DNA of 64,000 nt from assembly GCF_001347015.1 (NCBI RefSeq), contig NZ_CFGI01000006.1, forward strand, positions 62,001 through 126,000, given 5' to 3'. The translations under genes were made by a program, and so were the position numbers. The first letter of the stretch is position 1, and each line of letters begins with the position of its first letter. A model generated the notes under the pieces. That model worked only from the letters and a program-made list of their open reading frames with translations, had not been told where the DNA came from and did not search any database. The stretch comes from Streptococcus pneumoniae (GTDB lineage Bacteria > Bacillota > Bacilli > Lactobacillales > Streptococcaceae). Shown one piece after another: positions 41,867 through 48,117 of the stretch.

Positions 41867-44800
41867 TTAATTATTTTCAAAATAGGAATCAACCAACTCC
41901 TGAACTCTTCCTTCTTTAGCCACTGGAATAGTATCTTCTAAAACAAAATTCTTCCTACTAATATCTTTAGAAAGATTTCCAAAAATAAAATTAGTCGAGA
42001 TATTATAGATAATCTCAGACGGAGCAAATCCATAAACCTGATTCTCTAAAATATGCTTCAAACGTTTTTCAGAATCTGGAAATAATTGTTTCAAACCATC
42101 ACTATTATAGAGGCGTTTAACCAATTCTGCAATATAGAGACCTGACTTCATATATAAATCAATAAAAGTCTTAGATGGATCATCAAAAATCCCTGGATTT
42201 TCCTTTTCCAAATCATCCACCATCCTTTTCACCACTCGTTTAGGAGTGAAAATTTGGTTGGTCTTCTGCGGTGGAATATAGTCAAAAATGTCTTCTTTTT
42301 GATCTTTAAAATAATCCGCCAACTCCTTTTTCTTGCGAAGAAATTCTTGAATAGCTTCGTCAAATGTTGCTTTATCAAAGAGATGCCCTGCAAAATCCTG
42401 CCCACCATCTCGCAAATATCTAAACTGATCAATCGTAATACCAGTCACCTCAAAGAAGACTTGCTCAGGAACAAAGGCATCAAAATTATCAAGTGTTAGA
42501 GATTGATTGCCATAGGCCATGATGAAACTTGGAATTGTTCGTGCAAATCCTCGAAGATGGTCCCGAATTTCATCTTGGGCTGATTGTTTCAGCTGCTCAA
42601 CACGTTTTATCTCAACTTGTTCGATAAATTTCTCAGGCATTTTTTCCACTTCTTTTTTGAGTGTTTGTTCTAATTTTTCTTTGTGAATAAGATTATTTTC
42701 TTCTAAACGTTTATCCAAATCTTCTTGAATCTTATCTTTTTGCTCCTTATCATTTGCTTCCTTGAGTTGTTCTTTCAACTCTTCCTTGATATGAGCTTCA
42801 GAAATTTTACGTTCTATCTCATTTTTTCGAATTTCATTCTCAAATATTGCTGTAATTTGTTTCTTGATGTGATCTGCTTCTCGAGTTTTAAGGTCTTCAT
42901 ATCCAACTTTCAATTCCTCTACAATCACTGAAGAAACTGTCTTGCTCAAGTCATTGACTAGTTGCTTTTGAGTTTTATCTTCGTCCTTAGTGATCAGTTC
43001 AACAACAGACTGACCGAGTCCATAGACTTTTTCTCCAAAAAGTCGCATTTGCTGATTCACTACGATTTCATGGTCTACTACTGCATTCCCCTCATCATCT
43101 ACTGTAACATCTGAAAAGTCTAATAGTTCAGATGATGTTTGTAACTTCCCTTCCTTTTCAACTGGGAGTTCATTTAAAATGTCTAGAACTGTTTGACTAG
43201 CTTGGAAAATACCGCTGATATTATCAAATAAGAGATTGGACATAAAGCCACGTTTAAGAACTTCTCTAGCTTTTATCTGGCGAGGAATGGTTAGAACCGC
43301 CTTAGCATCAATTTCAACCATCTTACCAGCACTATCTTCAGCTATGACAGGGAAGAAATTTAGTAATTCTCTGATATTTTCTTCACGAGTTGTCGAAGTC
43401 CCGCCGCCTCCTGCAGTTGCAAGCGATAAGTTGTTGGCAAACTCATCAAAGAGAATCAAGGTTCTTTCCGGCGCAAAGTCAAATACATAGGCTCTTTCTT
43501 TGCGAAAGTGATTTCCTTTGTTATCGGTCCATGAGTAAGGATTTTGAGCACGGAAGGCGGCCTGCATATAAAGTGCAGGTGATTTCAAATTTGATAACAT
43601 CAATACGCCCGTCCATTCAGGGATAGTGACACCTGTCGTCAATTGACCGACGGATAGGGTGATGGTTTTGTCATTCTCTGCTATCGCTTTTCTAACCAAA
43701 TCTAAGGATTTGAGTTTGACTTTATCGTCATCCTCAGACATACGCCCGTCGCCAGCAGCTAACACAATCTCATAATTTTCATAGATAGGATGTTCTTCTA
43801 GTAGAGCTTTTAAAGCTTTAGCTGAGGCTACACGTTCTAACAGCCAAAAAGTATGATTGAGTTCATTTCGAAGTTCTTTGGTTGAAAATGGATATTTTTC
43901 ATTGCTCGATAGAGTATCTAACCAATTTCTGACATCTTGCTCATGGATAAATTTCCCTTTATCATCTGTGGCGAAAAATTCACTCAAGTCAAAAGCATAG
44001 TCGATATTTTCGCCATCCAGTTGAGCACCTTTTTCTAACTCCTCACCAATCATCTGAGACATTTGATAGGTAAAGAGATTTAACTGAGGTAAGGTTTCAT
44101 ATGGATTTTCCTCTTCTTGCTCAGAAGACCAAGTCGATTTAGCAGACTGTTCATCCGCATAAGACCAGTTGTAGATTTGATCCTCTGTAAAATCTCCTTT
44201 GGCCAATGCTTTAAATGGTGTACCTGACAAATGCAGAGTAAAATTCCGTCGAATCTTATTAAAGGCTTGGTCAGTCTTGAAGGTATCAACTCCTTCATGA
44301 GCCTCGTCAATAACCAACAAATCCCAATGCAGATCAGTCACCCATTTGAGTTTATCGTGCTCGCCACCTAAATAAACAGAACCTTTCAAGTCTTGAAGAC
44401 TGATAAAAGCAAGTTGTCTTACATCGTCATCTAAAATACCAACAAATTCTTTTCGTGACAAGGTTGGACGACTCTTAAGGCTGTCTGATTCAGAAACAAA
44501 CTTATAAGTCGTTTGACCTGCTATGAATGTTTCGAAATCATCATACCATGAGTTAGCTATTGCCGGTCTGTTGGTTACAATTAAGACATTGACAGCCTCC
44601 ATCCGTCGAGCTAAGTCATAGGTAGATAAGGTTTTACCAAATCGTGGCTTGGCATTCCAGAGAAATTTGCCTCCAGCATGTTCTTGGAAATAAGCTAATG
44701 TATTAGCAACTGCTTCTTCCTGCTCTTGTCGCAAGGTATAGTCCTGTCCTTGTCCAGGCTGATAACCTGATAAATCATGCTTAACAAACTTATCGAAGAG

Positions 44801-45124
44801 ATTTTTTGATTTTTCAGGAGTTCCATTAAAATAAAACCATTCCGTCTTAGGACGACGTTCCACATCATGGAAAGAAAGGAAATGGTGAAAATCATGGTCC
44901 TTAAAAGTCTTTCCCTTATCAGGTTCTTCCGTATAAGCTGCATCTCCAGTCCATAAAACATCTGTATCTATATGAGCTGTATGCGTTTGTTCTTTAATCC
45001 GTTGTCTGACATCACGCTCCGTATAACCAATCTTAATCCAGCCCTCATTGCTGGTTACCGTCGGTGTAGTGTAGGCATAGATTTTAGGATGAATTTCTTT
45101 AGTTGTTTTAATTTCTACTGGCAT
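41867..45124 (-). CDS. GIY-YIG/T5orf172-helicase restriction-type protein
   Basis: 1085 aa. Residues ~12-110 are a T5orf172/GIY-YIG-like nuclease domain (IYAYTT ... WIKIGYTERDVRQR). Residues ~125-600 form a superfamily 2 helicase/translocase: Walker A NAKPRFGKT (157-165), DEAH (273-276), SGTPF (300-304), and late motifs GVTIPEWTG and QAAFRAQNP. A coiled coil spans ~720-860. Residues ~955-1085 look like the first half of an N6-adenine methyltransferase (FTPKRVVKRM, FIDLYMKSGLYI, YGFAPSEIIYN) but end before any NPPY motif. It probably cuts unmodified DNA together with the methylase at 46206. It starts 21 nt after the Abi gene. Confidence 0.85.
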   Translation of the reverse strand: MPVEIKTTKEIHPKIYAYTTPTVTSNEGWIKIGYTERDVRQRIKEQTHTAHIDTDVLWTGDAAYTEEPDKGKTFKDHDFHHFLSFHDVERRPKTEWFYFNGTPEKSKNLFDKFVKHDLSGYQPGQGQDYTLRQEQEEAVANTLAYFQEHAGGKFLWNAKPRFGKTLSTYDLARRMEAVNVLIVTNRPAIANSWYDDFETFIAGQTTYKFVSESDSLKSRPTLSRKEFVGILDDDVRQLAFISLQDLKGSVYLGGEHDKLKWVTDLHWDLLVIDEAHEGVDTFKTDQAFNKIRRNFTLHLSGTPFKALAKGDFTEDQIYNWSYADEQSAKSTWSSEQEEENPYETLPQLNLFTYQMSQMIGEELEKGAQLDGENIDYAFDLSEFFATDDKGKFIHEQDVRNWLDTLSSNEKYPFSTKELRNELNHTFWLLERVASAKALKALLEEHPIYENYEIVLAAGDGRMSEDDDKVKLKSLDLVRKAIAENDKTITLSVGQLTTGVTIPEWTGVLMLSNLKSPALYMQAAFRAQNPYSWTDNKGNHFRKERAYVFDFAPERTLILFDEFANNLSLATAGGGGTSTTREENIRELLNFFPVIAEDSAGKMVEIDAKAVLTIPRQIKAREVLKRGFMSNLLFDNISGIFQASQTVLDILNELPVEKEGKLQTSSELLDFSDVTVDDEGNAVVDHEIVVNQQMRLFGEKVYGLGQSVVELITKDEDKTQKQLVNDLSKTVSSVIVEELKVGYEDLKTREADHIKKQITAIFENEIRKNEIERKISEAHIKEELKEQLKEANDKEQKDKIQEDLDKRLEENNLIHKEKLEQTLKKEVEKMPEKFIEQVEIKRVEQLKQSAQDEIRDHLRGFARTIPSFIMAYGNQSLTLDNFDAFVPEQVFFEVTGITIDQFRYLRDGGQDFAGHLFDKATFDEAIQEFLRKKKELADYFKDQKEDIFDYIPPQKTNQIFTPKRVVKRMVDDLEKENPGIFDDPSKTFIDLYMKSGLYIAELVKRLYNSDGLKQLFPDSEKRLKHILENQVYGFAPSEIIYNISTNFIFGNLSKDISRKNFVLEDTIPVAKEGRVQELVDSYFENN

Positions 45125-45145: not shown

Positions 45146-46096
45146 CTAAGATAATTTTTCTAACTCTGTTAAATCGATTCCCATCGTGTTTAAAATATCA
45201 TCAAATACTACAGTTTTAAATTCATCAGCATACTGATTGAATAGATTCATTAAAGCTTTATATAATCTTTGAAAATCCTTCTTATCAAGTACAATTTTTA
45301 AAAATAGAATAACCACTATGAAACGTTTATTATCATATCTCCTTATCCCAAAATGATTTGCTATTTGAGATATTCTGACATTTCTTAAATTAACATTATA
45401 CAGCCGTTCATCATGTGCACAGATATTTCTAACTAGATTAGCCACTTTCAAACATGCACTTAAATCTGCACTAGATAGTCTAAATGTATTGTCTTTATTT
45501 TGTGTTCTATATTTATCTGTATAAAATTTTGCAATGATATTCTTTGTACTATCCGTTAAAATATTGTAAAAATTAGCAATGTTTCCCATTGTAAGAAAAT
45601 TAACTAAAACCCAAAGTGGTACTTCCCCATGTTCCTCAATGTAATGTTTAATAGCGCCAGTTCTATCTACCTTATCATGAATCGTCTTGGTTAAGATAGA
45701 GATTTGTTGAAGAACTTTTTTAGGATCATCGTCTACAAAATTTGCAATATCTAAATAAGCATTCTTACGAGGGTGTTTTTTAGAGAATTCATATGCAACT
45801 GTGGTCTTTATTGAATTTTCGAATATCAATAAATATTTCAATAATAATATCCTTAGTTCTCTATCAAATAAAAACAAGGCCTTTAGTTCGTTAAAGTGAG
45901 TTCCTTTTTGATAAATTTCAGGTTCAACAGGTCGATTATTGCTATCCTTTACTAAAAATAAATCTTTATAACCGTTTATAACATTGTAATAGTTTTCTTG
46001 TTCTAAAAATCTCTTTGGCTTCCCATTCGTTGGTACTACAACACCCCTATTTCTTAAGATTGTTAACTGTTGATTAAATGTTTTATGTTCCTTCAA
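45146..46096 (-). CDS. Abi_2 (AbiD/AbiF-type) abortive infection protein
   Basis: 316 aa. The N-terminus (NQQLTILRNRGVVVPTNGKP, ENYYNVINGYKDLF) is typical of the Abi_2 family. Later blocks FDRELRILLLKYLLIFENSIKT and LVRNICAHDERLYN match the family core; the R-x4-6-H element is HEPN-RNase-like. Such proteins kill or arrest phage-infected cells, probably by RNA cleavage. The start is TTG with GGAGAT 4 nt upstream; no ATG occurs early enough to keep the conserved N-terminus. It sits between a methylase and a nuclease-helicase gene and has its own promoter plus leader terminator. Confidence 0.88.
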   Translation of the reverse strand: MKEHKTFNQQLTILRNRGVVVPTNGKPKRFLEQENYYNVINGYKDLFLVKDSNNRPVEPEIYQKGTHFNELKALFLFDRELRILLLKYLLIFENSIKTTVAYEFSKKHPRKNAYLDIANFVDDDPKKVLQQISILTKTIHDKVDRTGAIKHYIEEHGEVPLWVLVNFLTMGNIANFYNILTDSTKNIIAKFYTDKYRTQNKDNTFRLSSADLSACLKVANLVRNICAHDERLYNVNLRNVRISQIANHFGIRRYDNKRFIVVILFLKIVLDKKDFQRLYKALMNLFNQYADEFKTVVFDDILNTMGIDLTELEKLS

Positions 46097-46107
46097 ACTT
46101 ATCTCCT

Positions 46108-46147
46108 ATAAAATAAAAAGGGTCAGGGCATCGTATGCTTCCTGACC
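46108..46147 (-). terminator. Terminator/attenuator in the Abi_2 leader
   Basis: GGTCAGG (46121-46127) / CCTGACC (46141-46147) with an inner GCAT/ATGC stem (46128-46131 / 46135-46138), then CTTTTTATTTTA on the minus strand. It lies downstream of the Abi promoter and upstream of the Abi start codon. It also ends the methylase transcript. Confidence 0.85.
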
Positions 46148-46156
46148 TAATCCTAT
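46110..46156 (-). ncRNA. Predicted ~47-nt structured RNA upstream of Abi_2
   Basis: A transcript from the consensus promoter (start near 46156) would end at the hairpin T-run near 46110. It is a short leader plus one stable hairpin. No tandem repeats of type III antitoxin RNAs are seen. Existence as a separate RNA is inferred from promoter and terminator only. Confidence 0.45.
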
Positions 46157-46162
46157 GTGTCT

Positions 46163-46191
46163 ATTATAGATCACTGAGCGCTATTTGTCAA
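46163..46191 (-). promoter_or_regulatory. Consensus promoter upstream of Abi_2
   Basis: Minus strand TTGACA (46186-46191), exactly 17 nt, TATAAT (46163-46168): both hexamers perfect. It lies between the methylase stop and the leader terminator. Confidence 0.9.
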
Positions 46192-46205
46192 ATAAAAATA
46201 CTTCT

Positions 46206-48089
46206 CTAATCCATCTCCCTTACATGAGTCTCAATAAAGGCAATTTCCTCAGGGGAAAGGTCATATTTTTGATAGAGCTGACCGTCAATATCAGCCACTG
46301 ATTGTGTCCAATCAATGTCCGAATTGACCGTGAAGTCTTGGAGTGGGACTTTGGCCCAAGTTGCTGGAGGATTATCTTGCGTTAATTTCAAAATACCTAA
46401 CATAACTCTAGCAAATTTAGTTTTAATATACTTAAAACAAGCCTCTGCTTCTATTTTTGTGTCAAATTTTCCAATAGATATAAACGTCTGAGAATACCCG
46501 ATTAGGGGTTCCCCGATTAGGGGTGTTGAAAGCACTTCACCTAAAGCACCACTTCCGTTAGCTTTAGGTAAAATAATTTTCCAAAAGAGCAAGTTAGGAT
46601 GCTCTCGTAAGTATTCTTTTTTTAGATATTTTACAGAGCGCCCGTTTTTCTCTCGTCCAATTATTTGAACGTATTCTGTATTTGAATCTACTTTATCTTT
46701 AAATACCTCAGGGTATCGTTCAAAAATATTTGTAGAAACAGCTTTTCTGTGACTTGAATCAGTTCTAGAGATTAGTTCCGGAAAATCTTCAAACATAATG
46801 TCTGTCAACTTGTGACTATCTGAGCCAAACATAATTTCTGATAGTGATGGTTCTTGCAACTTTTTAACTTTTCTATAGATACTATCAAGTAAAGGCTCAG
46901 AGATAAATGTCTCTATTGGTTCAAAATCTTTATTTTTGTCATGATAAGTGATGACAACACCGCCTTTAATATCAGTCCCAGGAAAAACTTTATTGCTCTT
47001 TAATTCATAAAATTTAACTTTTAAATGTCTACTATTTAACATTTTATGATTCCATTTTTTGGGAGTTCCTCCTGTATTCGCAAGAAATCTAGCTGGGGTC
47101 ACTAGCACAGTTTTATCTGAAATTTTATAAGATTCCTCCATAAAGAAATGATAAATAGGCCTTGTCTGAGTATTCGCCCCTTCAATTTCCTCCTGATAAG
47201 GCGGATTTCCTATCACGACATCAAATTTCATTTCACTTTCCTCACTTGATAGGCGCTCAAAACCTATCATTTTATTCTTTTTCCAGTCTTTGATTTGGGT
47301 TTTAGATTCTTCTGCTTCTTGAATTTCTAGCTCATCTGTAAACAAGCTTAGTTGTTGAGATTGTCCTTGGCTAGCTGAATAAGGACTATTTTTTTCCAAT
47401 CCATCCATCTGAAAGACATTGTAGGATATAATAGTCGCAATCTCTTTCTTTTGCTCTAATGTTGGTTGATTTCCAGTCTTAGCAAGATAGTAGTCCTCAA
47501 ATGTCGCCAAAAGATTCTCACGCGCCAAAAGGAGAGAATCTCCTTGATACTCATAACCATAAGAAGCTCGGTAAGCTTTTTTTAAAAGTTCATAGAAGGT
47601 TACTTCATCAGAAACTTCACGACTAATCCTTTGCAGTTTTCTATCTACAAACCCAACACGCTCAGATAATGGAATTTCCTCACCAGTTACCGTATCATAT
47701 CGCGTTACCATATAAGGTGCTTCACCACAGGTAATTTCTAGCCAGCGCACTTGGATATAATCTTCAAGATTCAGAGTTTCAAGTTCAGCTTCAACGTAAC
47801 CATTTTGCTTTTCAACTAACCAAGTTGGCGTAAAAACTTCGGCTCTAATCTTAGTCCGATCTTTTTGCTCATATTTGGATTTTTCAGATCTGGGTTGAAT
47901 CAAGTTGGCATAGGTTCCCGTCACCTTACTTGGATTGATGCGATCACTTGGAGCAAATCCCTTTCCTAACAATTCATAAGAATGCGTAGCCCAAACAATT
48001 GATTTCTTTGTCGTTCGATCTTTTAAAAGAATTTTTAATAAGTCAGCCGATTCTTTAGATAAACTTTCTTCACTAATATCTATTGTCAT
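46206..48089 (-). CDS. Eco57I-type N6-adenine DNA methyltransferase
   Basis: 627 aa. SAM-binding region includes EVFTPTWLVEKQNGY and WLEITCGEAPYM (about 90-130), and the catalytic motif is VIGNPPYQEEI near residue 295. The C-terminal ~330 residues likely recognise the target sequence. It probably methylates host DNA to protect it from the nuclease-helicase at 41867. The ATG at 48089 has AGAGG 6-7 nt before it; the upstream TTG is rejected. First gene of the operon; its promoter abuts a BOX element. Confidence 0.88.
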   Translation of the reverse strand: MTIDISEESLSKESADLLKILLKDRTTKKSIVWATHSYELLGKGFAPSDRINPSKVTGTYANLIQPRSEKSKYEQKDRTKIRAEVFTPTWLVEKQNGYVEAELETLNLEDYIQVRWLEITCGEAPYMVTRYDTVTGEEIPLSERVGFVDRKLQRISREVSDEVTFYELLKKAYRASYGYEYQGDSLLLARENLLATFEDYYLAKTGNQPTLEQKKEIATIISYNVFQMDGLEKNSPYSASQGQSQQLSLFTDELEIQEAEESKTQIKDWKKNKMIGFERLSSEESEMKFDVVIGNPPYQEEIEGANTQTRPIYHFFMEESYKISDKTVLVTPARFLANTGGTPKKWNHKMLNSRHLKVKFYELKSNKVFPGTDIKGGVVITYHDKNKDFEPIETFISEPLLDSIYRKVKKLQEPSLSEIMFGSDSHKLTDIMFEDFPELISRTDSSHRKAVSTNIFERYPEVFKDKVDSNTEYVQIIGREKNGRSVKYLKKEYLREHPNLLFWKIILPKANGSGALGEVLSTPLIGEPLIGYSQTFISIGKFDTKIEAEACFKYIKTKFARVMLGILKLTQDNPPATWAKVPLQDFTVNSDIDWTQSVADIDGQLYQKYDLSPEEIAFIETHVREMD

Positions 48090-48117
48090 AAGCAACCTCT
48101 CTTATATTGTAAGCCCT

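Follow-up and report, generated by a model that had tools for sequence, protein, structure and literature searches.

The AbiF gene of C. difficile phages lies behind a SigA promoter, a structured RNA and a terminator that is read through into the Abi_2 gene, and the terminated leader RNA, RCd22, binds AbiF and neutralises it both in cis and in trans (PMC12373285; here and below, published work is cited from excerpts of the papers). PbAbiF is neutralised by AbiFr, and Cas13 is reported to descend from AbiF (PMC12737573). The AbiD1 gene of L. lactis (Lactococcus pIL105) is preceded by a terminator at which a 50-base transcript stops, and the excerpted source assigns this transcript no function (PMC2661086). 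In ToxIN, a toxin is paired with an RNA antitoxin, and pseudo-ToxI, an antitoxin-like RNA of phage PhiTE, suppresses the toxin (PMC3475682). AbiD is reported as the commonest defence other than CRISPR and restriction-modification in S. thermophilus (74 of 263 strains), with its mechanism listed as unknown (PMC12322248). Here we analysed a 64,000-nucleotide stretch of Streptococcus pneumoniae DNA (contig NZ_CFGI01000006.1; hereafter the window), in which a short predicted RNA lies directly 5' of a gene for an Abi_2/AbiD protein (abi). We consider it likely that the two form a type III-like RNA-protein toxin-antitoxin module in which the RNA hairpin doubles as the terminator.

Leader anatomy and the Abi protein

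An earlier reading of this DNA (the original prediction) had placed a perfect TTGACA-17-TATAAT promoter between the methylase stop and the Abi start, followed soon after its start point by a nested hairpin with a T-run, and had expected a transcript of about 47 nt. Our analysis bore out these points (Table 1). The promoter scan scored 12 of 12 consensus positions with a 17-nt spacer, and a perfect promoter of this spacing occurred only once on both strands of the window and in none of 100 shuffles. Judged from the position of the -10 box, transcription should start at about 46156 on the minus strand, some 9 nt before a hairpin of 7 bp, an AA bulge, 4 bp and an ACG loop. The hairpin is followed by CTTTTTATTTT, which runs to 46110, and the predicted RNA is 42 to 47 nt long, with the consensus AUARGAYUAG plus hairpin. 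Folding of the 70-nt leader yielded -16.5 kcal/mol (z -2.6), a value equalled by 1 of 200 shuffles. The hairpin, though plain in the fold, was not listed by an automatic terminator scan of the window, probably because of its AA bulge. We also noted a weak, A+U-rich hairpin over the ribosome-binding site (46098-46117, minus strand), 3' of the terminator and similar to that of AbiD1, in a stretch poorly conserved in relatives.

Attenuation had been envisaged as well. An attenuator with a competing antiterminator finds no support in the minimum-free-energy conformation, in which the roughly 9 nt that precede the hairpin are left free and no competing helix was seen, nor in the AbiD1 relative, whose full-length mRNA does not rise upon phage infection according to the excerpts (PMC2661086).

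The protein is a member of the Abi_2/AbiD family. It matched Pfam PF07751 with 138.8 bits (cut-off 25.6) and was called AbiD by PADLOC (E 1.1e-50). The HEPN RNase motif, R-polar-xxx-H, is intact as RNICAH at residues 223-228; across 60 aligned relatives (six copies with short first frames were omitted), R223, N224, C226, A227 and H228 are invariant and the third motif residue varies. An AlphaFold model of the protein had a pLDDT (predicted local distance difference test) score of 93.9, and its sole Foldseek match in the PDB at E<=0.001 was 8vz6, PbAbiF with its noncoding RNA (E 8.5e-11, TM 0.75/0.79).

The promoter and hairpin, their conservation and covariation, and the family and fold of the protein are established by this analysis. 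In the module that we propose, a strong, constitutive promoter would yield mostly the 42- to 47-nt RNA ending at its own hairpin, and rare read-through past the hairpin would supply the abi mRNA. The RNA, with its free tail GAUUAG and bulged hairpin, would bind the AbiD HEPN dimer and keep the RNase site closed; the hairpin would restrain abi in two ways, by terminating transcription and by acting as antitoxin. Upon phage infection, RNA and protein would fall out of balance and the RNase would be released, leading to abortive infection.

The locus has the arrangement of the AbiF modules, with a putative RNA gene that carries its own promoter and terminator directly 5' of a candidate toxin gene, whose product has a predicted PbAbiF-like fold. 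The likeness to PbAbiF-AbiFr (PMC12373285, PMC12737573) covers protein and layout. AbiF of phage phiC2 is homologous to the window protein, with 29% identity over 291 columns. RCd22 differs from the window RNA in its 88- to 132-nt transcripts, two RF03085 motifs and separate terminator (PMC12373285), whereas the window has one 42-nt hairpin that would itself be the terminator. AbiD1, compared by description, is of the same AbiD group with its terminated transcript just 5' of the gene, in a leader of 76 nt versus about 60 nt in the window; the excerpts give that transcript no antitoxin reading, unlike our proposal (PMC2661086). ToxI is repetitive, whereas the window RNA is single: one copy was found in the window with up to three mismatches allowed, and one match to our RNA model, R1, in the genome. 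ToxN belongs to a different protein family from Abi. The AbiF/Cas13-ancestor system would gain from the pneumococcal locus a minimal RNA that merges antitoxin and terminator.

Table 1. Features of the leader and its flanking genes (window coordinates)
Feature	Position	Strand	Basis or detail
SigA-type (sigma-70) promoter TTGACA-17-TATAAT	46163..46191	minus	-35 TTGACA 46191-46186, -10 TATAAT 46168-46163
Predicted 42-nt RNA (tail AUAGGAUUAG single-stranded, hairpin, U-run; model R1)	46115..46156	minus	conserved unit
Nested hairpin GGUCAGG-AA-GCAU-ACG-AUGC-CCUGACC	46121..46147	minus	fold; antitoxin candidate and intrinsic-terminator stem
Terminator T-run TTTTTATTTT	46110..46119	minus	sequence
Ribosome-binding site AGGAG	46103..46107	minus	sequence
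Eco57I-type DNA methyltransferase	46206..48095	minus	profile match; stop 46208-46206 just 5' of promoter
Abi_2/AbiD protein, 316 aa	45146..46096	minus	TTG start 46096-46094
ResIII helicase/restriction protein, 3' of abi	41867..45124	minus	profile match

Conservation of the RNA in front of abi genes

A scan of species genomes gave 78 Abi loci, 11 of which encode proteins with at least 60% identity to the window Abi (best segment). The RNA precedes abi in all 10 of these close homologues with a readable leader, 54-62 nt from the start codon; the leader of the remaining locus, L038, is truncated by a contig end. Loci from Lachnospiraceae and Erysipelotrichaceae are among those with the RNA. When viral contigs were scanned with only the RNA pattern, two matches were returned, both directly 5' of an Abi_2-type gene (by Pfam for L133, where the promoter is weaker: TTGACT/TACTAT, 9 of 12). 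The suggestion that a small RNA with its terminator forms a conserved unit with the Abi_2 gene was thus upheld, as was the expectation that promoter and hairpin would be conserved among homologous loci. The original prediction had also linked Abi_2/AbiF proteins to RNA partners and to Cas13 ancestry, in agreement with published work (PMC12373285, PMC12737573). Since they recur at homologous loci, promoter and hairpin are more than chance, and we rejected a chance origin on this ground and on that of the shuffles. With a conserved RNA class 5' of AbiD genes, the hypothesis of an RNA antitoxin can be put directly to the test.

Among the phage records examined (Javan119, Javan235, Javan291, Javan1 and Javan173, plus phiC2), Javan235 and Javan119 share the window-type leader, and in both abi adjoins an integrase gene; in Javan119 it lies between a CI-like repressor and the integrase. 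A plasmid search gave only partial matches for the 42-mer and no plasmid DNA match for leader plus gene.

We compared six divergent RNA-abi loci, two of them streptococcal, by mean pairwise identity. The first 36 nt of the RNA are 85% identical and the spacer 31%. The -35 box is 100% identical, reading TTGACA throughout, and the -10 box 94%, versus 49% for the 6 nt past the -10, 26% immediately 5' of the -35 and 43% 3' of the RNA. Apart from the two promoter boxes, conservation in these alignments starts at the expected transcription start. The covariation check that the original prediction had called for drew on an alignment of nine leaders, 7 of them distinct, in which 77 of 77 cells are paired and 2 of 11 pairs are changed on both sides.

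These comparisons bear on three alternatives to the toxin-antitoxin reading. The hairpin lies right 3' of the methylase stop and could be a plain terminator of the methylase gene, with abi expressed from elsewhere. This explanation fails because promoter and hairpin recur jointly behind other, unrelated genes, and the promoter scan listed no promoter between hairpin and abi start; contradicted by the comparative data, it retains next to no likelihood. A 5'-untranslated-region element that a phage protein senses could instead govern translation, on the model put forward for AbiD1. The AbiD1 leader is alike in anatomy, with a 50-base transcript, a terminator and a stem-loop at the ribosome-binding site (PMC2661086), and the window leader fold has its weak hairpin at the corresponding place. 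That hairpin seems not to be conserved, by sequence, because the stretch 3' of the RNA is only 43% identical across the six loci, and we regard such an element as very improbable. Finally, the RNA might serve the Abi RNase in a Cas13-like manner, as an activating cofactor or as a guide, without restraining it. The reported descent of Cas13 from AbiF (PMC12737573) and the retention of the RNA in every close homologue with a readable leader would suit this role; however, the published AbiF RNAs neutralise their protein (PMC12373285), and the RNA is near-invariant, with no variable spacer-like stretch. We therefore judge the cofactor role to be highly unlikely.

The neighbours of RNA-abi units vary and include a methylase, an AbiEii gene accompanied by an AbiEi-like one that scored below its cut-off, a gene resembling GMP reductase (by eye), and repressor, Fic and integrase genes. 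In the window the unit looks to sit within a restriction-modification locus, since a ResIII helicase protein follows abi. A ParE-like toxin gene and its neighbour adjoin this apparent locus.

Rfam abiF and the leaders of other Abi_2 genes

The Rfam family RF03085 (abiF RNA) had no match in the window at the gathering score and none at E<=10 in 501 nt; the positive control, phiC2, scored 37.6 bits. Membership of the window RNA in RF03085 was rejected, the window, 20 Abi loci and 15 orphan or phage loci all being without a match. Under stricter filters, 284 Streptococcus genomes gave 0 matches above the cut-off. One genome, G275, carries a sub-threshold RF03085 match of 20.0 bits (L125:1501-1539) directly 5' of an Abi_2 gene and preceded by GATTAAG. 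The G275 RNA looks like a divergent RF03085 member, and the Rfam abiF model may miss streptococcal members. From the sequence comparisons, the window module looks like one of a known kind, AbiF-type, with an RNA distinct from Rfam abiF. The RNA was undescribed in the literature that we searched; the AbiF models of Zilberzwige-Tal 2025, which lie outside that search, might include it.

By our own scoring, 52 of 78 distinct Abi leaders have the order promoter, terminator, start codon, versus 9 of 304 control genes taken from these loci; the low-G+C subset gives 47 of 54 versus 8 of 215; the 52/78 count omits leaders with <200 nt upstream, duplicates of >85% identity and L001-L004. About two thirds of Abi_2 leaders thus look to share the design, with other RNAs. 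A class of Clostridia leaders (L056, L066, L069, L073) has a covarying hairpin, in which both sides of 6 of 8 pairs have changed, and some of these leaders contain two copies; RF03085 gave no match in the three loci of this class that were tested (L052, L060, L077). The motif UAYG is present in 43 of 46 leaders, where about 20 would be expected to contain it after shuffling, and lies in a loop in 32 of 46. This count covers 46 of the 52 arranged leaders, the loop test is home-made and rough, and no superfamily is claimed.

The frequency of this layout, together with a hairpin and T-run directly 5' of the gene, favours a further alternative, in which the hairpin is a terminator or attenuator only, acting in cis to lower transcription of abi, and the RNA set free is inert. 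This view is weakened because a terminator needs pairing rather than a particular sequence, and yet both the free 5' tail and the loop sequence are conserved across bacterial families. It is further countered by copies of the RNA without abi, some of which precede tRNAs and lack a U-run of terminator length. We consider a terminator-only role unlikely.

Several observations nevertheless weigh against the toxin-antitoxin reading. Because the Rfam abiF match is lacking, the proposed antitoxin role draws its support from position, fold and the relatives of the protein. When R1 was run against distant Abi leaders (67 genome-contig, 7 viral and 15 other loci), no match exceeded 15.8 bits, a level attributable to chance; more distant Abi relatives bear other hairpins, and in the sequences compared the window RNA is one class, confined to the closest proteins. 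The RNA is a single unit, versus the tandem ToxI and the two-motif RCd22. In the excerpts on AbiD1, activation is translational, and removal of the terminator sequence brought no gain in reporter expression (PMC2661086). Lastly, 10 of 19 Streptococcus genomes with the RNA have no abi beside it, so restraint of a toxin is perhaps not its sole role.

Orphan and tRNA-linked copies

The R1 search of the 284 Streptococcus genomes gave matches in 22 genomes at E<=0.1, and 19 were kept at >=41 bits, those of 36.0, 30.0 and 25.6 bits being dropped as weak. In 8 of the 19, abi lies directly 3' of the RNA (with an internal stop in the G227 copy). In G133, the RNA lies at the end of one contig and an abi of 70% identity at the beginning of another; the two are presumably adjacent. 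The remaining 10 orphan copies were unforeseen by the original prediction. A tblastn search with nine Abi queries detected no abi gene in the 10-18 kb around each orphan, and no close Abi was found elsewhere in the 10 genomes; G096 and G035 have relatives of 26-31% identity.

The orphans occur in diverse settings, from versions of the restriction locus that lack abi to islands and prophage-like regions. In G159 and G210 the methylase-RNA-helicase order is retained and abi is absent. The G096 copy lies near integrase-like and XRE-like genes (by eye) and the G136 copy 5' of a terminase-small-subunit-like gene (by eye). Those of G035, G217 and G042 (L161-L163) lie 3' of a DUF4325-type gene (by Pfam in G217, by eye in G042, and by eye and truncated in G035), with helicases nearby in G035 and G217. 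A zeta toxin was noted in L161. In an order-level sample of 345 genomes, G708 has the RNA (L172:1501-1542) 5' of an abi remnant that encodes 26 C-terminal residues (65% identical, E 2.7e-5), and G791 and G859, from two other genera, have it (L171:1501-1542, L173:1501-1542) 5' of a KilA-N-type gene (by Pfam in G791, by eye in G859). Distant Abi proteins are encoded elsewhere in G708 (29%), G791 (26%) and G859 (39%), the last with a different hairpin. Promoters are recognisable in G159, G210, G096, G791 and G859 (10-11 of 12), and weak in the DUF4325 copies (9, with a poor -10) and G708 (8).

In an alignment fitted to R1, the abi-linked copies with ten orphans have 186 of 187 cells paired and 5 of 11 pairs changed on both sides; the orphans alone have 98 of 99 cells paired and again 5 of 11 pairs so changed. 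Alignment A5, which includes the dropped 36-bit copy L156, gives 7 of 11, and the figure without L156 is the one used. With L171-L173 included, 12 orphan sequences have 44 stem differences from the window, yet only 4 of 132 pairs are broken (3 of the 4 in L171 and L173), where random change would be expected to break 32, or 18 if only transitions occurred; these expectations ignore shared ancestry and so inflate the contrast. This pairing is hard to reconcile with decay alone, and continued function of the orphans is suggested because their stems remain paired. They possibly serve in anti-addiction or as phage counter-defence.

A further set of copies is linked to tRNAs. The hairpin lies 3-5 nt 5' of tRNA-Glu, -Tyr, -Arg and -Tyr in G283, G084, G221 and phage Javan291, respectively, and these copies (L153:1501-1540, L154:1501-1540, L155:1501-1539, L169:8001-8040) have no U-run of terminator length. 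No promoter was found at the phage tRNA copies or at G136 (6-7 of 12). The surroundings in G283, G084 and G221 are prophage-like from neighbouring genes (by eye), and a viral contig carries the same RNA-tRNA element as G221. The surroundings of the three genome copies yielded no Abi_2 gene, and the 16 kb of Javan291 that were examined have none annotated. Javan1 (L178, ~1540-1575; tRNA match) and G001 (L180; by eye) have similar upstream sequence and a tRNA with a different hairpin, GAUUGGCGAG...CUCGCC, for which no cognate Abi was found among the loci examined. Javan173 has a tRNA-like sequence and no obvious R1 hairpin (by eye).

We tentatively propose, as a possibility that we hold to be rather doubtful, that the RNA is both the streptococcal AbiD antitoxin and a mobile counter-defence element. 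A terminator-less phage copy before a tRNA would be freed by tRNA processing as a decoy disarming AbiD-type RNases, the hairpin in this slot would be exchangeable, as in Javan1 and G001 and as an arms race predicts, and the chromosomal orphans would confer anti-addiction immunity. If functional, the orphan and phage-tRNA copies would be natural RNA-based anti-defence, comparable to pseudo-ToxI.

Weaker matches were seen more widely. In a phylum-level sample of 398 genomes, R1 matches of 31.1, 27.1 and 26.1 bits were dropped, with no Abi among the few surrounding open reading frames, where none was searched for. In the order-level sample, G734 has four identical R1-like copies of 31.5 bits (L174-L177), dropped as weak, of which the one examined, L174, adjoins a transposase-like gene.

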